DNA of 64,000 bases from Malus domestica (Eukaryota > Streptophyta > Magnoliopsida > Rosales > Rosaceae), in the NCBI RefSeq assembly GCF_042453785.1, contig NC_091665.1, forward strand, positions 31,707,001 through 31,771,000, in the 5' to 3' direction. Of this stretch, positions 33,100-64,000 are shown piece after piece. The position numbers were made by a program, and so were the translations under genes. The notes beneath the pieces were generated by a model. That model made no database searches. It was given only the letters and a program-made list of their open reading frames with translations, and was not told the DNA's origin. Numbering within the stretch: position 1 is the stretch's first letter; each line of letters begins with the position of its first letter.

Positions 33100-34653
33100 T
33101 TAGTTGTGTTCGTTGCTTTCGCCAGACAGTTCCTCCAAAGATTTTCCTTTCGATTCAGGTACAAAGAACGTAAATAATAAACCCAAAAAGTTGATCACAC
33201 CCAACATAATAAGTGAGTTCTTGACCCCTATACCAGCAGGAAACCCTGCTTCTGCCTTAGCCTTGTCCTGCGGTTGCGCCAAGAACAAGAATCCGAATGC
33301 ACCCACCATTGCCCCTAACTTTCCGGCTGCTGCAGATATGCCATGGCAAGTTGACCGCAGTCTAGCCGGGAAAATTTCAGCTGGCACCACAAATGTAGTA
33401 GCATTAGGTCCGAAATTTGCAAAGAAGAAAGTCAGTGAGTAGAATACCACAAACCCTATCAAGTGATGTGTCCAATAATCGTAGAGAAATGCCAATACAA
33501 ACATGAACACTGTCATGAAGAAGAATCCCATCATTTGGATTGTGAATCTTCCGATTTTATCAATGAAGGCTACAGTGAACCAGTATCCGGGTACAGTACT
33601 GCATAGGGCGATAAGCGTTTGTGCCCTTGCAATTCTATAAACCTCTGAAACGGCATTCAAAGTTTTAGCATTAGGAATCCATCCAATGGCGCTGAAAATG
33701 TCTTTCTGAAACAGATTTTGGCTATAAAATGCAATGTCAAGCAAGAACCATGTGCTTGTGGTTCCAAGCAAGTGGAGTCCATGGCGGTGCATAAACTCCT
33801 TAGAGAATAAACCGAAAGATTTCACAGTTTCCTTAGGCAACCTGACGGGTTCAGGTTCTATGTCAACCTGCAATACTTTTCCCATATCAGCATTAGCCTG
33901 GTTGACATCTTTCGCAACAAGCGCTGTGTAACGGGCAGTTTCTGGCATCTTTGAGCGCGAGTAGTAGGTTAGAGCTGCCGGAAGTGCTCCAACCATTAGA
34001 ATGATTCTCCAAAGGTAGTCTGCTTGTGGGACAGTTGAACCAACTGGATCAACTTCATAAGATGGAGCCTTGAATTTGGCCTCAAAAATCGCAGAGATGA
34101 GCATTGCAAACAACCCTCCTGCTAGAATTCCAAACCCCTGCATGGCAAACACCGCGGCAACAAAGGCACCACGAGTCTTTTTATTTGCGTATTCAGACAT
34201 TATGGTGGCGGAAAGAGGGTAGTCACCACCAATGCCGAACCCTAGCCAGAACCGAAAGAAACAAAGCGTGGTCATTACAGACTTCGCGGTGTGCCCAAAG
34301 GAGAGCGCGGAACCAATGGAGCATATGATCATGAGCATAAGTGTCATGCCATACACTTTTTTTCTCCCCATTTTGTCACCAAGCCAGCCGAAGACCACTT
34401 GCCCTGCCAATGTGCCAACAAGCGCCACGCCATTGACAGCTGCTGACACATTTGGAGGCAATGTGCCTGGTTTTGGTGATCCTTCAACGTGGTAATATAT
34501 GCGGCCAAGCAATTTGGTGACGAGGGATATGCAGAAGAGATCGTATGCGTCGGTGAAGAATCCCATTCCGGCGATTACGATTGTGGTGAAATGGTACCAT
34601 TGTGTTTTTGCAGTGTCAAGTGCACTGAGCACATGCAGTTGTTCCTTGGCCAT
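33100..34653 (-). CDS. PHT1 high-affinity inorganic phosphate transporter (first copy, intact)
   Basis: A single uninterrupted frame of 517 residues starting [20 protein letters not shown]. The frame stays open 25 codons further upstream, but the family start is the Met at 34653. It is a 12-segment major-facilitator protein with [13 protein letters not shown] in helix 1, [14 protein letters not shown] between helices 2 and 3, and the PHT1 signature [13 protein letters not shown] in helix 4. A long central hydrophilic loop follows, then [20 protein letters not shown] in the second half. PHT1 proteins are plasma-membrane H+/phosphate symporters for root uptake and internal redistribution. The length is normal and no damage is seen. 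It is the only complete PHT1 in the window and heads a duplicated cluster. Confidence 0.95.
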
Positions 34654-35263
34654 GGATTTAGCCTTGCTTGGTTTGATCTCTCTCTTGCAAACTCTATTTC
34701 TCTGGTTCATCAATATGCAAGAACACAAACGGTAAGATTACATTTCCATAACACTGTATGAATAAAGAATGATTTAAATGTGAATTTGATTGATATAAAC
34801 ACAGAAGATTAAAACACAAGAGTTTCACATTTCTTGAAGAAACTTAAAATAAGTCGGAAAAATTCACATAAAGAGGATATAACTAATTGTTCCCGGAAAC
34901 TATACGTGCAAGACGTTCATTCTTTAGTAAACAACGGATGTGCATTGATACTGCTGAAAATCCGTCAACATGTTTGTACGTTTTGTTACAGACAATGATA
35001 TTGACATATTATCAATGACATATCAACACTCTGTTGATTAATAAAGAACATGCATCAGTTCCATAGCCAGACAAATAATTCTTCATATATAATTGAAAGA
35101 TTGCATTGTAAAACATAGGATGAGACCAAAATAATTCCTAGAATTAATTTATAAAAATTCAACAATGGTAAATAAAATATGAAAAACATGCAGCTTCATC
35201 AAGAAGAAACAAGAACATGCATGCATAGAGTTTTTTTCCTAACCTGGATCTTCTCTCTCAACC

Positions 35264-35291
35264 TAGAGAGAGAGAGAGAGAGAGAGAGAGA
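35264..35291. repeat. (GA)n microsatellite in the PHT1 leader
   Basis: About 14 GA units followed by repeated ACTCCGACTCC. The copy at about 62,035 is shorter and interrupted by CACACACAC. Confidence 0.9.
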
Positions 35292-35376
35292 AACTCCGAC
35301 TCCAACTCCGACTCCGAGAGATCTAGAGAGAGGGGTAGGTAATAGGTTATGCTCTAGGGGAAGCAGGGAATGAGAA

Positions 35377-35384
35377 TTTATAAG
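35377..35384 (-). promoter_or_regulatory. TATA box of the first PHT1
   Basis: CTTATAAA on the gene strand, just before the GA-rich leader and about 40 bases downstream of a P1BS site. Confidence 0.55.
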
Positions 35385-35422
35385 GGAAGGGCGCGTCGCC
35401 GAGCAACCGGAATATTACAATG

Positions 35423-35430
35423 GCATATTC
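35423..35430 (-). promoter_or_regulatory. P1BS (PHR1-binding) element
   Basis: GCATATTC fits the palindromic consensus GNATATNC bound by PHR1-type MYB-coiled-coil factors under phosphate starvation. It lies about 40 bases upstream of the TATA box. In the duplicated promoter at about 62,187 this site reads GGTATGCTC and is lost. Confidence 0.65.
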
Positions 35431-35504
35431 TTCCCCTCCATTTTAGCTAGCTGTTGTTTCTCTGCAGACCCTTCTGTTCAACAAACTCAAGACATCTTTC
35501 AGCG

Positions 35505-35512
35505 GTATATTC
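35505..35512 (-). promoter_or_regulatory. Second P1BS element
   Basis: GTATATTC also fits GNATATNC, about 120 bases upstream of the TATA box. It is kept in the duplicate at 62269-62276. Two P1BS sites close to the TATA box suggest induction by low phosphate, as is known for many PHT1 genes. Confidence 0.6.
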
Positions 35513-36663
35513 CGAATGTCCGAGAATTTCTAGTAGAAACCAGTAGTAGCCAAAACCGAAAACAGTTCCATATACGTTACCAGAACGCGTATTTCCACAG
35601 TTGTCCAATTTCTATATTTAGTTTTCAAATTTGAGGTTGAAATTTTTGACATAAATGGTACGTAATATATACTTTGGTGAAGGAATTAAATTCCATATAA
35701 TCTGAGGGGATGGAATATATGTCCTAACTGCTATGCTAGCTAGCTGGAGGATCGTAAAAGATTTCATTACAAGATTCATTTCTGATTTGGGGGGAGATTT
35801 TCAGGTAAAAGTAATCAATAATTTCTCAATGATTTGGAGACCAAAAGCAAAGAAATTATAGAATGATGGTAGAAATAAATGGATTAATGGAACAGTGTGC
35901 CGAGTGTACGAATGTACGAACACCCTCTATATTAATTTGGAAAGTAAAAAAGTTCCAAGTTTTTGAATCCTCAATCACGTTGAGAAGAAAAAATGTACAT
36001 GACACATGTTCTATTTGACTCCTTTTAAGTGTTACAAATATAAGATTTCTATTAAATATAAGGAATATAATATTAAATTTTCTCCTCGTAATCGTATTGT
36101 CGAGATTTCCTTAGAAAAAATAAAGAAAAATAATATCAATGAAACCTGAGTGGCAGGAGTTCTTGAGTGTGAATGATTGTGCATATTATACGTTTATCTC
36201 TATTATTACGTGACTACGACTACGATCTGATACGGGACATACTCTGAACAGTGAGTGGACTAGCCACTCTGCCTTAAGAGAAAATACGCAAATCTACCTA
36301 ACCCCCCAAAACAAATTCGACTTTCACATTGAGAAACAGAAAACAGTTGATGATTCACTTCTACTTTATATACTCAATACCATTTAGTCACAGCTGCGGA
36401 GAGAAACATGGGTACCCTAGTTTTGATCATACACGCGACACCGTAGATGACAGTTTGAAACACAAGACCTCAGGTTCAAAGATAAACGCTGACGCTTTAC
36501 GTACACACATGTTATACATGGAAAATGCACACTTTATCTGGCATCCTTTGTAAAAGCCAGGACATAGACTCATGGAATACCACAAAGGATGAAATACCCC
36601 TCCCCAAAATGAACTACAGGCTTACATTACAACATTATTTTCTGCACTGCTTATAGATCCAAC

Positions 36664-46149: not shown

Positions 46150-46545
46150 GGGGAATGATTATGCATACTATATGTTTATCTTTATTATTACATGACTACA
46201 ACTACGATCTGATATAAGACATACTATGAACAGTGAAAATTAACTAGCCACTATGCCTTAAGAGAAAATGTGCAAAACTACCTAAACCCTCAAAACAAAT
46301 TCAACTTTTACATTGAGAAACAAAAAACGGTTGATGATTCTCTTATACCTTATATACTCAATACCCTTTAGTCACAGCTGCGGAGAGAAACATGAGTACC
46401 CTAATTTTGATAATACACGCGACACCGCATATGACAGTTTCAAACACAAGACCTCAGGTTCAAAGATAAACCCTGACGCTTTACGTACACACATGTTATG
46501 CATGGAAAATGCACACTTTATCTGGCATCATTTGTAAAAGCCAGG
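46150..46545. repeat. Duplicate of the PHT1 3'-flank segment
   Basis: Matches 36,180-36,556 with about one change in ten bases (for example ACGATCTGATA, GTCACAGCTGCGGAGAGAAA). A third copy lies at about 62,925-63,260. It stops abruptly at GTAAAAGCCAGGAC, where PHT1 coding sequence begins. Confidence 0.85.
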
Positions 46546-46804
46546 ACCATTTGCCCTGCTAATCTGCCAACAAGCGTCATGCCATTGACAGCTACTGACA
46601 CATTTGGAGGCAATGTGCCTGATTTTGGTGATCATTCAACTGGTAATATATGCGGCCAAGCAATTTGGTGACAAGGGAAATGCAGAAGAGATAGTACGCA
46701 TCGGTGAAGAATCCCATTCTGGCGATTACAATTGCGGTGAAATGGTACCATTGTGTTTTTGCAGTGTCAAGTGCACTGAGCACGTGCAGTTGTTCCTTGG
46801 CCAT
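46546..46804 (-). pseudogene. PHT1 5' stub (duplicate of the first PHT1)
   Basis: Starts [20 protein letters not shown] at 46804 and matches the first PHT1 for about 85 codons, then joins unrelated 3'-flank sequence at about 46,546. About 430 codons are missing. It carries a one-base deletion near 46,640 (ACTGG against ACGTGG) and the replacements G-to-R in IARMGFF and D-to-Y in AYYLF, so it was already decaying. Its leader and promoter continue rightwards to 47,154, where the Copia element interrupts. Confidence 0.9.
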
Positions 46805-47154
46805 GGATTTAGCTTTGCTTGGTTTGATCTCTCTCTTGCAAACTCTATTTCTCTGGTTCATCAATATGCAAGAACACAACGGTAAGATTACATTTACATA
46901 ACAATGTATGAATAAAGAATGATTTAAATGTGAATTTGATTGATATAAACACAGAATATTAAAACACAAGAGTTTCACATTTCTTGAAGAAACTTAAAAT
47001 AAGTTGGAAAAATTCACATAGAGATGATATAACTAATTGTTCCCAGAAACCATACGTGCAAGACGTTCATTCTTTAGTAAACAATGGATATGCATCGATA
47101 CTGCTGAAAATCTGTCAACAACATGTATGTACATTTGGTTACAGACAATGATAT
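46805..47154. repeat. Duplicate of the PHT1 leader region, left part
   Basis: Matches 34,654-35,001 closely and ends at the target duplication gatat (47150-47154) of the Copia insertion. Confidence 0.85.
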
Positions 47155-47493
47155 TATTGAACTTTTTAGTTTCAACTATTTGTATAATTCATCATAAGAA
47201 ACTAAGTACAAGGGAGAAGCTCTTATAGAGAGCTTGAGAGTGACTTAAAGGCTAAAAAGACAAAGCCTAATAATAGGCCATATAAAGAACCAAAAGGAAT
47301 AAGCTAGCTAACGTGCAACAAATGTATAATTACAAGTTTCAAGGGAGACATAAGACCATGAATTAAGGATTCAAATTAAGGAACAAAGGAAAAGTGGTGG
47401 TACATCACTTCCATCACGTCAAGTACATCACTCACTTCCATCACATCAAGTACACCACTCACTTCCATCACGTCAAGTACATCACTTCCAATA
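47155..47493 (-). repeat. Left LTR of the Copia element
   Basis: 339 bp with termini TATTG...CAATA, not the usual TG...CA. It contains three tandem copies of a ~30-base unit with CACTTCCATCACGTCAAGTA at about 47,403-47,490, an expansion that the other LTR seems to lack. Confidence 0.85.
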
Positions 47494-57969: not shown

Positions 57970-58192
57970 TATTGAACTTTTTAGTTTCAACTATTTGTAT
58001 AATTCATCATAAGAAACCAAATACAAGGGAGAAGCTCTTACAGAGAGCTTGAGAGTGACTTAAAGGCTAAAAAGGCAAAGCCTAATAATAGGCCATATAA
58101 AGAACAAAAAAGAATAAGCTAGCTAACGTGCAGCAAATGTATAATTACAAGTTTCAAGGGATACATAAGACCATAAATTAAGGAGCAAATTA
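57970..58192 (-). repeat. Right LTR of the Copia element, inner part
   Basis: Aligns with the first ~223 bases of the left LTR. It is interrupted at TTA (58190-58192) by the Harbinger-like element; its remainder is the inverted piece 59783-59846. Confidence 0.85.
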
Positions 58193-58465
58193 GAGCAACT
58201 CCAGCGTAGGAGCCCTCCCCCCAGGCAATTCACTATTCAATCCACCCAGTGAACAGTAACTACCCTTAATGAACAGTAACTGCCTTTTGCATTTCTAGCG
58301 TGGGAGCCCTCTCCTTGGCAATAGGTAATAAAATATTTGTATTTTATTTATTTATAAAATAATACAAAATAATTTTATTTGTAATTTCGGATAGGATTTT
58401 TAATCGATCTTGTTGTACCATTTTCTATTAAAAAATTATTTTTATTTTTTATTTTCACATGTAGC

Positions 58466-59711
58466 TAGGGGTGGGTTCAAATAACCGAAAACCGAAAAAA
58501 ACCGAAAACCAAACCGAACCGAGGCCGAAAAAAACCGAACCGAAACTGCCAAACCGAACCGAACCGAATCTGGCTGGTTCGGTTTCGGTTTTTAAGGTTC
58601 GGAAACCGAACCAAAACGAACCGAACCGAACAGATATATATATTTAATTTTGTTTTCAATATTATAAATAATTTAGTGATACAATCATAACAAGACATAA
58701 CCTGTTACCAAGTTGGTTTGCTTGAAACTTTTCAAGCCCCTGTGCATGGGTTCGAATCCTCATGCTTCCAGGGTTTCAGAAAAGTTTTTTAGTTTTTTTG
58801 AGCAATCAACAACCTTTTAACTTAAAATTAAATATAAATACTTAAAACCTGCTGCTGTGAGGAATCGAACCCCTTCCGTCCAGGGGGGATAATTCCTTCA
58901 AGCCAACTTGACTGTAGGCTTTGTGTTGTTATAATTGTACCAGTAATATATTTATAGGTTTCTAATATTTAATGCTTTATAAAATTTCTTAAGATTAAAA
59001 ACCCTAGCCGTCACTCTCCCAATCCCATTTCGGTTTTCCCTTTTCTCAAGCACTCTCTCCCCTCCGCTATTTCCTCTCTGCCTCTCTCTCTCTCTCTTTC
59101 TCTCCCCTTCCTCTCTTCCTCCAAATCACTATCTCTCTTTGTGGATTTCGACGGTAGCAAAGAGGAGAGCCAAACCACAGTGGCAGTGGAGCAGTCCAGT
59201 GGCACAACATGGGACTGATGGGCAGTTGACGGCGGACGAGGGCAGTCATTAATCGTTGCAGATCCATGATCCATGGTTCTTTGTTTTTGTGTTGTGTTGT
59301 TGGTTAATTTTCGTTTGCAGATTTTTTTTTTCAATTTCGTTGGTTCTGAACTTCTGATGAATTTGATCTGTAGCTTCTAAATTTCATGGTTTTGCAATTT
59401 GTTTTGGGTATGCTGGATTTGGTTAGGTAACTTCATTTATGAACACTATTAGACTATTAGTTGAGGTTTGATTAATTTGTGAGAGTACATACGGTTTGAT
59501 TAATTTGTTTTGGGTATGCTGCTGCTGAAGCCTGGATTTGTTGTGGCTGTTTTGCATTTTTTGGAGGAAAAAAAAAAATAACCGAAAAAAAAACCGAAAC
59601 CGAACCGAAAAAAACCGAAAAAAATTTGGGCCGAACCGAACCGAACCGAAATTTCGGTTTGGTTTCGGTTTTGGCAAAAAACCGAACCGATAAGAACCGA
59701 ACCCAGCCCTA
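58466..59711. mobile_element. hAT-type non-autonomous element, copy A
   Basis: 1,246 bp. The ends TAGGGGTGGGTTC and (inverted) TAGGGCTGGGTTC match with one change. Both subterminal zones are dense in ACCGAACCGA-type repeats. Left flank is catgtagc (58458-58465) and right flank atggaact (59712-59719); these do not match each other but match copy B crosswise. The interior holds two tRNA-like modules in opposite orientation and an open frame of 107 codons (59011-59334) of low complexity. Confidence 0.8.
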
Positions 59712-59782
59712 ATGGAACTGATGCCCGTTCTTTATTAATCAACAGAGTGTTGTTGATATGTCATCGATAATGTGTTAATATC
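59712..59782. repeat. Inverted piece of the duplicated PHT1 promoter
   Basis: Reverse complement of sequence like 34,997-35,063, including AACACTCTGTTGATTAATAA. It lies between hAT copy A and the inverted outer end of the Copia LTR. Confidence 0.85.
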
Positions 59783-60568
59783 TATTGGAAATGATGTACT
59801 TAACGTGATGGAAGTGATGTACCGACACTTTTCCTTTGTTCCTTAAGAGCAACTCCAGCGTGGGCTGGTGCTCGAGGGGAAGGCCCGTGAACAGTGCCAC
59901 AGAGCTCGGGGAGAGTGCTCCAGCGTGTGGAAGCCCGATGGACAGGCCAAACCCGAGCAACAGGCCTGGCACGAATTGCCAGCCCGAGAGCCCAAAGGCA
60001 ACGTGACGTGGGTTGACGTCAGCCATAATATAAAATTAATAAAAATATAAAATATTAATAAAATTAAAAAGTAAAATTAAAAAAAAATTAAAAAAATTGT
60101 AAAACCCAGGCTTCGAACTCAACGGCTCTCGCCGGAGTTCATCGCCGAGGTTGATGAACACCCACAGACAAATGGCAGAGATCCAGTCCATCCTCCGCTG
60201 CAACTGGCGTGCCCAAATTGGACGATTTGGGATTTGTTTTTGGGGGAAAGAGGAGAGAGAGAGAGTTTGGTTAGGGAGCGGGAAAGATCGGGACCGTTGA
60301 TGGAGGCTGAGGTGGGTGTGATGGTGACGATGGAGGAAGAGAGGCAGCGGTGGGGTGGTGAAGATAGAGGAAGAGAGGCGAGGAGGGTTTGGGTGCGTTG
60401 TGGGGGGGGGGGGGGGAGCGGGCGACACAGGTTGAAAATTTGGGTGTGGGTTGAAAATGGTGTGAAAAGAAGAAAAAAAATGTTGATGAGTGACGATGCG
60501 TTGGCACCATCATGTGAAAAGAAGAAAAATAATAATAAAAAAAAAAAGTTTTGGACTAGTGCTACATG

Positions 60569-61820
60569 TAGGGCTGGGTTCGGTTCTTATCGGTTCGGTT
60601 TTTTGCCAAAACCGAAACCAAACCGAAATTTCGGTTCGGCCCAAATTTTTTTCGGTTTTTTTCGGTTCGGTTTCGGTTTTTTTTTCGGTTATTTTTTTTT
60701 TTCCTCCAAAAAATGCAAAACAGCCACAACAAATCCAGGCTTCAGCAGCAGCATACCCAAAACAAATTAATCAAACCGTATGTACTCTCACAAATTAATC
60801 AAACCTCAACTAATAGTCTAATAGTGTTCATAAATGAAGTTACCTAACCAAATCCAGCATACCCAAAACAAATTGCAAAACCATGAAATTTAGAAGCTAC
60901 AGATCAAATTCATCAGAAGTTCAGAACCAACGAAATTGAAAAAAAAAATCTGCAAACGAAAATTAACCAACAACACAACACAAAAACAAAGAACCATGGA
61001 TCATGGATCTGCAACGATTAATGACTGCCCTCGTCCGCCGTCAACTGCCCATCAGTCCCATGTTGTGCCACTGGACTGCTCCACTGCCACTGTGGTTTGG
61101 CTCTCCTCTTTGCTACCGTCGAAATCCACAAAGAGAGATAGTGATTTGGAGGAAGAGAGGAAGGGGAGAGAAAGAGAGAGAGAGAGAGGCAGAGAGGAAA
61201 TAGCGGAGGGGAGAGAGTGCTTGAGAAAAGGGAAAACCGAAATGGGATTGGGAGAGTGACGGCTAGGGTTTTTAATCTTAAGAAATTTTATAAAGCATTA
61301 AATATTAGAAACCTATAAATATATTACTGGTACAATTATAACAACACAAAGCCTACAGTCAAGTTGGCTTGAAGGAATTATCCCCCCTGGACGGAAGGGG
61401 TTCGATTCCTCACAGCAGCAGGTTTTAAGTATTTATATTTAATTTTAAGTTAAAAGGTTGTTGATTGCTCAAAAAAACTAAAAAACTTTTCTGAAACCCT
61501 GGAAGCATGAGGATTCGAACCCATGCACAGGGGCTTGAAAAGTTTCAAGCAAACCAACTTGGTAACAGGTTATGTCTTGTTATGATTGTATCACTAAATT
61601 ATTTATAATATTGAAAACAAAATTAAATATATATATCTGTTCGGTTCGGTTCGGTTTGGTTCGGTTTCCGAACCTTAAAAACCGAAACCGAACCAGCCAG
61701 ATTCGGTTCGGTTCGGTTTGGCAGTTTCGGTTCGGTTTTTTTTCGGTTCGGTTTTTTTCGGCCTCGGTTCGGTTTGGTTTTCGGTTTTTTTCGGTTTTCG
61801 GTTATTTGAACCCACCCCTA
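60569..61820. mobile_element. hAT-type non-autonomous element, copy B (inverted relative to A)
   Basis: 1,252 bp, reverse complement of copy A with few differences; the 107-codon frame at 60936-61259 translates identically to that in copy A. Left flank gctacatg (60561-60568) is the reverse complement of the left flank of A; right flank agttccat (61821-61828) is the reverse complement of the right flank of A. Confidence 0.8.
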
Positions 61821-63265
61821 AGTTCCATAGCCAGACAAATAATTCTTCATATATAATTGATAGATTGCATTGTAATACATAGGATGGGACCAAAATAATT
61901 CCTAGAATTAATTTATAAAAATTCAACAATGGTAAATAAAATATGAAAAACATGCAGCTTCATCAAGAAGAAACAAGAACATGCATGCATAGAACTGCAG
62001 TTTTTTTCCTAACCTGGATCTTCTCTCTCAACCTAGAGAGAGAGACACACACAGAAACTCCGACTCCAACTCCGACTCCGAGAGATCTAGACAGAGGGTT
62101 AGGTAATAGGTTATGCTCTAGGGGAAGCAGGGAATGAGAATTTATAAGGGAAGGGCGCGTCGCCGAGCAATCGGAATATTACAGTGGTATGCTCTTCCCC
62201 TCCATTTTAGCTAGCTGTTGTTTCTCTGCAGACCCTTCTGTTCAACAAACTCAAGACATCTTTCAGCGGTATATTCCGAATGTCTGAGAATTTCTAGTAG
62301 AAACCAGTAGTAGCCAAAACCGAAAACAGTTCCATATACATTACCAGAACGCGTATTTCCACAGTTGTCCAATTTCTATATTTAGTTTTCAAATTTGAGG
62401 TTCAAATTTTACGTAATATATACTTTGGTGAAGGAATTAAATTCCATATAATCTGAGGGGATGGAATATATGTCCTAATTGCTATGCTAGCTAGCTGGAG
62501 GATCGTAAAAGATTTCATTACAAGATTCATTTCTGATTTGGGGGGAGATTTTCAGGTAAAAGTAATCAATAATTTCTCAATGATTTGGAGACCAAAAGCA
62601 AAGAAATTATAGAATGATGGTAGAAATAAATGGATTAATGGAATAGTGTGCCGAGTGTAAGAATGTACGAACACCCTCTGTATTAAATTGGAAAGTAAAA
62701 AAGTTCTATAAGTTCGAATCCTCAATCACATTGAGAAGAAAAAAATACATGAAACACGTTTTGTTTGACTTCTTTTGAGCATTACAAATATAAGATTTCT
62801 ATTAAAAACAAGGAATATAATATTAAATTTTCTCTTCGTATTGTCAAGATTTCCTTAGAAAAAATAAAGAAAAATAATATCAACGAAATCTGAGTGGTTG
62901 GAGTTCTTGAGTGTGAATGATTGTGCTTTATCTCTATTATTACGTGACTACAACTACGATCTGATATAAGACATACTCTGAACAGTGAGTATGGACTAGC
63001 CACGCTGCCTTAAGAGAAAATGTGCAAAACAACCTAAACCCCCAAAATAAATTCAACTTTCACATTGAGAAACAGAAAACGGTTGATGATTCTCTTCTAC
63101 TTTATATACTCAATACCATTTAGTCACAGCTGCGGAGAGAAACATGGGTACCCTAGTTTTGATCATACACGCGACACCGCAGATGACAATTTCAAACACA
63201 AAACATTAGGTTCAAAGATAAACGCTGACGCTTTACGTACACACATGTTATACCACAAAGGATGA
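61821..63265 (-). repeat. Duplicate of the PHT1 promoter and 3'-flank region, right part
   Basis: Matches 35,056 to about 36,520 along its length, including leader, TATA (TTTATAAG at 62141-62148), the (GA)n zone (shortened) and the segment leading into the next PHT1. Its own coding sequence is the stub at 46,546-46,804, about 15 kb away. It is therefore an orphan promoter. Confidence 0.85.
62269..62276 (-). promoter_or_regulatory. P1BS element kept in the orphan promoter
   Basis: GTATATTC, equivalent to 35505-35512. The TATA-proximal P1BS of the parent has changed to GGTATGCTC here. Confidence 0.5.
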
Positions 63266-63336: not shown

Positions 63337-64000
63337 CTACACAACTGGAACTGTCCTGTTGTTATAGCTTGATTGCTCCAACTCCACTGTCCCGGTTTCG
63401 CTTTCTTCTTCGTTCTCACCCGACATCTCCTCCAACGACCTCCCATTCGATTCAGGCACCAAGAAGGTGAACAATATCCCCAAGAAGTTGACCACACCCA
63501 ACACAAGGAGCGAGTTTTTAACCCCGATGCCTGGAGGGTACCCTGCATCTGTCTTGTTCTTATCTTTGTTCTGAGCCAAGTACAAGAACCCGAATGCACC
63601 AACTATGGCGCCAAGCTTCCCGGACGCAGCTGAGATTCCATGACACGTAGACCGGAACCTAGCTGGGAAAATCTCAGCCGGCACAACAAATGTGGTTGCA
63701 TTAGGACCGAAGTTTGCGAAAAAGAAGGTCAATGAGTAGATCACTACGAACCCAATTCGGTTGTCCTTGTGAGTCCAATGTTCGTAGGGAATAGCCAGTG
63801 CAAACATGAACACTGTCATGAAGAAGAATCCCATCAACTGAATTGCAAATCTTCCAATCCTGTCAATGAAAGCTACCGTAAACCAGTAGCCAGGGACAGT
63901 ACTGCACAATGCAATAAGAGTTTGGGCCCTTGCGATTCTGTAAACTTCTTCAATAGCATTCATTGTCTCTGCAGGAGGAATCCATCCGATCGCACTGAAA
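63337..64000 (-). CDS. PHT1 phosphate transporter, third copy, 3' part (partial)
   Basis: The stop is at 63337-63339 and the frame is open to the right edge, giving about 220 C-terminal residues. They include helices of the second MFS half ([40 protein letters not shown]) and end with an Asn/Arg-rich tail, NNRTVPVV. It differs from the C-terminus of the second PHT1 at only about four of 208 residues (for example DHW/EHW, YAL/YSL, GVF/GAF, QSN/QSS), so the two are recent duplicates. Whether its N-terminal half also carries the hAT insertion cannot be seen, because that part lies beyond the window. Confidence 0.92.

Follow-up and report, generated by a model that had tools for sequence, protein, structure and literature searches.

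A micro-inversion bounded by two probable sister copies of a hAT-like element with exchanged target duplications in apple

Introduction

Exchanged target duplications at the ends of an inverted segment are usually taken as a sign that two transposons have recombined (PMC2775673, PMC8225341). Does this hold for a locus of apple (Malus domestica) at which two copies, A and B, of a non-autonomous hAT-like element stand in opposite orientation, within a cluster of nested transposable elements next to PHT1 genes? The locus lies in a stretch of 64,000 nucleotides (contig NC_091665.1, positions 31,707,001 to 31,771,000), hereafter the window, to which coordinates refer unless a locus is named. An original prediction, made from the letters alone, proposed that two independent insertions recombined and inverted the DNA between them. 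We find that an 857-bp segment of the locus is inverted, between what are probably sister copies of the same hAT-like element. As for its origin, we propose with moderate confidence that this natural plant micro-inversion arose in one step, the ends of a single non-autonomous hAT-like element on sister chromatids having transposed together (hybrid-element transposition). Exchanged duplications and near-identical sister copies fit a single transposition reaction in the apple case as well as, or better than, recombination.

Results

Copy A is flanked by CATGTAGC on its left and ATGGAACT on its right, and copy B by GCTACATG and AGTTCCAT, respectively. Flipping the segment between the copies (59712-60568) in silico places CATGTAGC on both sides of one hAT copy and AGTTCCAT on both sides of the other, each pair matching at 8/8 bases. 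The exchange of duplications noted in the original prediction is thus exact; two 8-bp reverse-complement matches would arise by chance with a probability of ~5e-10, given the local base composition. The same single flip mends four layers of the locus: the duplications of the two hAT copies, the TTA duplication that flanks a Harbinger-like element, the 5' long terminal repeat (LTR) of a Copia element with its GATAT duplication, and a PHT1 spacer. Support for an inversion of the DNA between the hAT copies is strong, each join having been checked against a paralogous PHT1 spacer, against Harbinger-like relatives or against the second LTR of the Copia element.

In the PHT1 layer, the flipped segment together with the right flank matches the paralogue spacer at 34930-35190 through one AGTTCCAT and without any insert, whereas in the unflipped order only scattered matches are found to the left of the B site. 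Continuity of the PHT1 sequence is restored as predicted, but the label 'promoter' had to be corrected: the spacer lies ~0.4 kb upstream of a PHT1 start codon in the paralogous unit, and at the present locus only a truncated remnant of that gene is left, on the far side of the Copia element. At the homoeologous C10 locus (L051, 2576-3076), the match to the PHT1 spacer is limited to the sequence right of the B site, and none was found to its left in the paralogue spacer comparison.

The Copia LTR runs from 58192 on into the flipped 59846-59783, as it does in the other LTR at 47155-47493. The inner part, 57970-58192, agrees at 95% with 47155-47378; the remainder, 59783-59846 read in reverse complement, matches 47376-47493, bar a 54-bp difference in tandem-repeat length. 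GATAT is present on both outer sides of the Copia element and single in the PHT1 paralogue. The Harbinger-like element in turn has TTA on both sides, and its GAGCAACTCCAGCGT ends oppose each other only once the segment is flipped. A 3-bp target duplication of the TWA type and matching terminal inverted repeats are the marks of PIF/Harbinger elements. In 10 of 12 distinct relatives (13 locus identifiers, with L034 and L042 being one place), the flipped element spans the A site in one piece; six of the 12 (L030, L031, L033, L036, L038 and L039) align end to end, from position 1 or 2 to 986. In L032 and L037, both sides align with a gap at the A site, order and strand being kept. Left unflipped, the element aligns as two main parts on opposite strands in all 12 relatives. 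Both continuities claimed in the original prediction, of the Copia LTR and of the Harbinger-like element, are thus borne out by the other LTR and by uninterrupted relatives. The nesting order is Copia in the PHT1 spacer, then the Harbinger-like element in its 5' LTR, then hAT copy A in the Harbinger-like element, and lastly the inversion. This order dates copy A and gives no time for the insertion of copy B.

A near-identical inverted repeat of 1.25 kb is a classic site of assembly error, and the plant might carry matched duplications around a segment that the assembler flipped inside the repeat. We consider such an artefact very improbable. The whole structure measures 3.4 kb, which is under the typical length of a long read, the assembly being presumably based on such reads, and three differences set A and B apart.

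The family to which A and B belong was compared at further loci, chosen as the better search matches rather than as a random sample. Both ends were found in 24 of the 27 family loci besides A and B, with 8/8 duplications in 23 of these and 7/8 in one. In the first control set, for which the best-matching pair of ends was kept at each locus, ends were recognisable at 17 of the 20 loci, each of which showed an 8/8 duplication; among longer or complex loci, six of seven had 8/8 and one had 7/8. The terminal inverted repeats, TAGGGGTGGGTTC and GAACCCAGCCCTA, are imperfect and occur in 17 of the 20 loci. Short terminal inverted repeats of this TAGGG-TG type are typical of hAT elements. With them and with 8-bp target duplications, the A/B family shares two traits of the hAT superfamily.

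A and B are equal in 1235 of 1262 aligned columns, the differences being a single substitution and two indels, of 16 bp and 10 bp. A repeat block at element positions 1112-1132 inflated distances between copies (the distance from A to L009 is 8 unmasked and 4 masked), and masked counts were therefore used. Among 12 close copies, A and B show the fewest substitutions outside this block of all 66 pairs, with one, the next value being four. Private substitutions number 3-12 in each of the ten other close copies, one in A and none in B, again outside the block. L025 and L027 were in a first alignment and were dropped from the second as more divergent; both alignments were made without L020, L021, L023, L026 and L028, which have other lengths, and without L019, L022 and L024, the ends of which were not recognised. 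The copies also have bases in common. Both carry T at element position 301, where 26 of 26 scoreable other loci (31 fetched) have C, and across the 651-Mb genome (19 contigs) the exact 26-base word around it is present at A and B alone. A and B also agree in a T within an A-tract that none of the ten other close copies shows.

The proximity of the copies was set against random insertion, under which the expected number of opposite-oriented pairs no more than 858 bp apart is 9e-5 for the 12 close copies and 0.0055 for 92 3' ends. By eye, A and B form the sole opposite-oriented pair within 10 kb among the 92 3' ends listed. Since A and B are the closest pair, share a base in a unique 26-base context and would rarely lie so close by chance, it is much more likely that one copy derives locally from the other than that the two are unrelated insertions.

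This bears on the route first proposed, in which two independent insertions in opposite orientation underwent homologous recombination and gene conversion made the copies alike. The inversion between the copies stands; their independence is poorly supported, A and B being the closest of the 66 pairs with a base in a context unique to them, and chance closeness within the close subfamily being ~9e-5. Such a history would also require two insertions, a crossover and a near-complete conversion. Other findings agree with it. The observed order of junctions fits, the differences between A and B sit only near the ends, the pattern expected after a long conversion tract, and the 16-bp unit missing from A is likewise missing from L010, L012 and L015; furthermore, the ~0.1 chance pairs expected this close among 383 5' ends do not make the coincidence very rare. 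All considered, we regard two independent insertions as unlikely.

Discussion

If A and B are sister copies, the question becomes by which reaction one copy gave rise to the other and the intervening DNA was inverted. A symbolic model yields L t1 E t2' S' t1' E' t2 R, which is the observed order, whether two inverted copies recombine or one element undergoes a single sister-chromatid transposition. As the single transposition predicts an identical order, the swapped duplications alone do not identify homologous recombination. The literature points to the same ambiguity: Delprat et al. (PMC2775673) describe the outcome of a single-site hybrid element as 'strikingly similar' to that of ectopic recombination, and the authors of the study on the Anopheles 2Rj inversion state that alternative transposition starting from a single copy has the same end result as homologous recombination (PMC1952172).

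The route that we favour would start from a single hAT-like element at one of the two sites, before the inversion. After replication, transposase would pair the 5' end of the element on one chromatid with the 3' end on the sister, and this hybrid pair of ends would land ~0.86 kb away. In one insertion step, a second copy would arise in opposite orientation and the intervening DNA would be inverted; the target would gain a new 8-bp duplication, while the two copies of the old one would come to lie at different breakpoints. As the model is symmetric, the A site or the B site could equally have been the original one. We also considered a reversed-ends transposition between two pre-existing copies and rejected it by reasoning, since copies in opposite orientation have ends of one kind on the inside.

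Alternatively, the element might have moved by ordinary local transposition into the sister chromatid, ~0.86 kb off and in opposite orientation, followed by homologous recombination between the 1.25-kb inverted repeats. This possibility, which we hold only tentatively, accounts for the sister relationship of A and B, for their closeness and for the swapped duplications, and a close inverted repeat of this length is generally known to be a good substrate for recombination. It invokes two events where one is enough, however, and the three differences between A and B are too few to map a crossover point or a chimera. We therefore favour the one-step transposition over this two-step route. Of the marks of ectopic recombination, the exchanged duplications and the opposite-oriented copies are present; three differences are too few to show whether the copies are chimeric.

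What could tell the two reactions apart is the state of the copies, identical after hybrid-element transposition and chimeric after recombination (PMC2775673). By this criterion, the near-identity of A and B speaks for one-step transposition, though weakly at this locus, since gene conversion can also make copies alike. As a crossover swaps differences without removing them, it can be reasoned that two recombining parents must have been equally alike.

Hybrid-element transposition predicts identical copies, and A and B are near-identical (one substitution, two repeat indels), so that later change has to be assumed. Several points weigh against a one-step origin. All differences between A and B lie near the ends (positions 62, 151 and 1166-1175), with 1014 identical bases between; two of the three are at repeat-number sites that vary in other copies too; the short CCGAA count of B is found in none of the ten other close copies. 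The pattern is as expected of two older insertions homogenised by gene conversion. Tree support for an A+B clade is 72, the masked block with its shared A-tract T having been left out, and the exact search for the 26-base word misses copies with T at position 301 plus another change in the word. In the broad family (383 5' ends, with at most one mismatch), ~0.1 opposite-oriented pairs within 858 bp are expected by chance, by hand arithmetic with the formula used for the 12 copies and the 92 ends. No source of transposase was found among the longer relatives: a transposase-size frame is lacking in the six examined (L072-L077, 2.1-3.1 kb), the longest stop-to-stop frame being 201 codons in a search for unspliced frames. 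Lastly, the evidence comes from one assembly and a single haplotype. Our confidence in each of the routes is a matter of judgement, not of calculation.

Ac is a hAT element, and hybrid element insertion of the Drosophila P element is reportedly to be credited to Gray in 1996. In maize, the ends of elements on sister chromatids transpose jointly and rearrange the flanking DNA, with Ac leaving an 8-bp duplication (PMC3744419). Both Drosophila P hybrid element insertion and maize Ac/Ds thus resemble the proposed apple reaction in the joint transposition of sister-chromatid ends, and Ac does so in its 8-bp duplication as well. The P and Ac/Ds events were caught experimentally, whereas the apple event is reconstructed from structure alone, and the Ac/Ds sister chromatid transpositions in the excerpt of PMC3744419 gave inverted duplications and deletions rather than a balanced micro-inversion.

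The closest likeness in structure is to inversions studied in other organisms. The Galileo-bounded inversion 2z3 of Drosophila buzzatii has opposite-oriented copies at its breakpoints, exchanged target duplications and single target copies at the uninverted sites (PMC2775673). Its copies are chimeric, which its authors take as the result of ectopic recombination, whereas A and B are nearly identical, pointing the other way. Galileo belongs to the P superfamily, unlike the hAT-like apple element, and the apple inversion spans just 857 bp. The maize p1/p2 reversed-ends inversions (PMC8225341), driven by Ac termini, share with apple the elements at both breakpoints and an 8-bp duplication. They start from two elements in direct orientation and show one new duplication, in contrast with the reciprocal exchange of both duplications in apple. 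The same paper lists unlike flanking duplications as a mark of non-allelic homologous recombination (NAHR), a reading that we question for the apple locus. Anopheles gambiae 2Rj (PMC1952172) resembles it in that two routes lead to the same end structure. In 2Rj, segmental duplications of 14.6 kb flank the inversion; a single putative 8-bp duplication is described, and no reciprocal set such as apple has. No natural plant hAT inversion with exchanged duplications was among the literature matches listed (Drosophila, Anopheles, maize and rice cases), in a search that left subscription papers mostly outside. The apple locus represents a known kind of rearrangement, and a clean new example of it.

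Should the one-step origin be correct, the locus would provide a clean case of natural alternative transposition by a plant hAT element, beyond experimental stocks. The swapped duplications would here mark aberrant transposition, preserved to the base, and not homologous recombination. As for consequences, the flipped spacer leads across the ~11-kb Copia element to a truncated PHT1 remnant at 46545-47155, and the next PHT1 gene, with its stop codon at 63337, has its 3' side toward the cluster. Since the spacer leads to that remnant only and the neighbouring gene faces the cluster with its 3' end, the functional effect of the inversion is probably small, and a regulatory effect on the PHT1 genes seems unlikely from the gene arrangement.

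Features of the locus and of related elements

Table 1. Positions of the repeats, duplications and PHT1 spacers in the window.
Feature	Position	Strand	Remarks
hAT-like non-autonomous element, copy A	58466..59711	+	1246 bp, ends TAGGGGTGGGTTC...GAACCCAGCCCTA
hAT-like non-autonomous element, copy B	60569..61820	- (opposite to A)	1252 bp; 1 substitution and 16-bp and 10-bp repeat indels relative to A
Target duplication 1, outer copy, CATGTAGC	58458..58465	+	flank reading
Target duplication 1, copy moved to B by inversion, GCTACATG	60561..60568	-	flank reading
Target duplication 2, copy moved to A by inversion, ATGGAACT	59712..59719	-	flank reading
Target duplication 2, outer copy, AGTTCCAT	61821..61828	+	single copy at paralogous empty site, about 35057-35064
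Inverted segment, 857 bp	59712..60568	-	PHT1 spacer 59712-59782, Copia LTR end 59783-59846, Harbinger-like part 59847-60568
Harbinger-like element, left part	58190..58465 (element from 58193; TTA target duplication 58190-58192)	+	remainder in inverted segment; second TTA, as TAA, at 59844-59846
Copia 5' LTR, inner part	57970..58192	- (element on minus strand)	outer end within inverted segment, 59783-59846
Copia 3' LTR, reference	47155..47493	-	ends TATTG...CAATA, target duplication GATAT
PHT1 paralogue spacer	34930..35190	.	lacks both copy B and the Copia element (empty site)
PHT1 intergenic spacer right of B	61829..63253	.	61821-63253 92.5% like 35057-36517

The Copia LTRs have the termini TATTG...CAATA in place of TG...CA and are accompanied by the 5-bp GATAT duplication. 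They diverge by ~4.5% in their inner parts (10/222 bases), and in their outer parts by the 54-bp difference in tandem-repeat length. We take this LTR element to be Copia, following the label in the original prediction; a 135-residue piece matches the integrase core with an E-value of 3.8e-7 and 30.7 bits, just under the Pfam cut-off of 32.6.

Within the hAT-like element, stretches at 58700-59280 look by eye like captured host DNA, one being a tRNA T-arm-like GGTTCGAATCC and another AAACCCTAG with a CT-rich leader; ARAGORN found no tRNA gene in 58000-62500. The longer relatives L072-L076 (2.3-3.1 kb) have the ends common to the family and a longer interior with other frames, one of which, in L073 and L076, is rich in KKREEEAEKLAEAATRKSEARRLADLEEKD. 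These loci possibly hold a different interior between common ends. At L078 (541-2298), a second 3' end lies inside a family member, the outer ends of which have 8/8 duplications. This locus was considered as a second close hAT pair and set aside, as it is one element with an extra inner 3' end; it is perhaps a nested or internally duplicated element. Beyond the Copia element, 46153-47155 contains a truncated PHT1 5' end with its leader (93.8% like 34393-35002) beside a piece like 36171-36563, and represents a broken tandem PHT1 duplicate.

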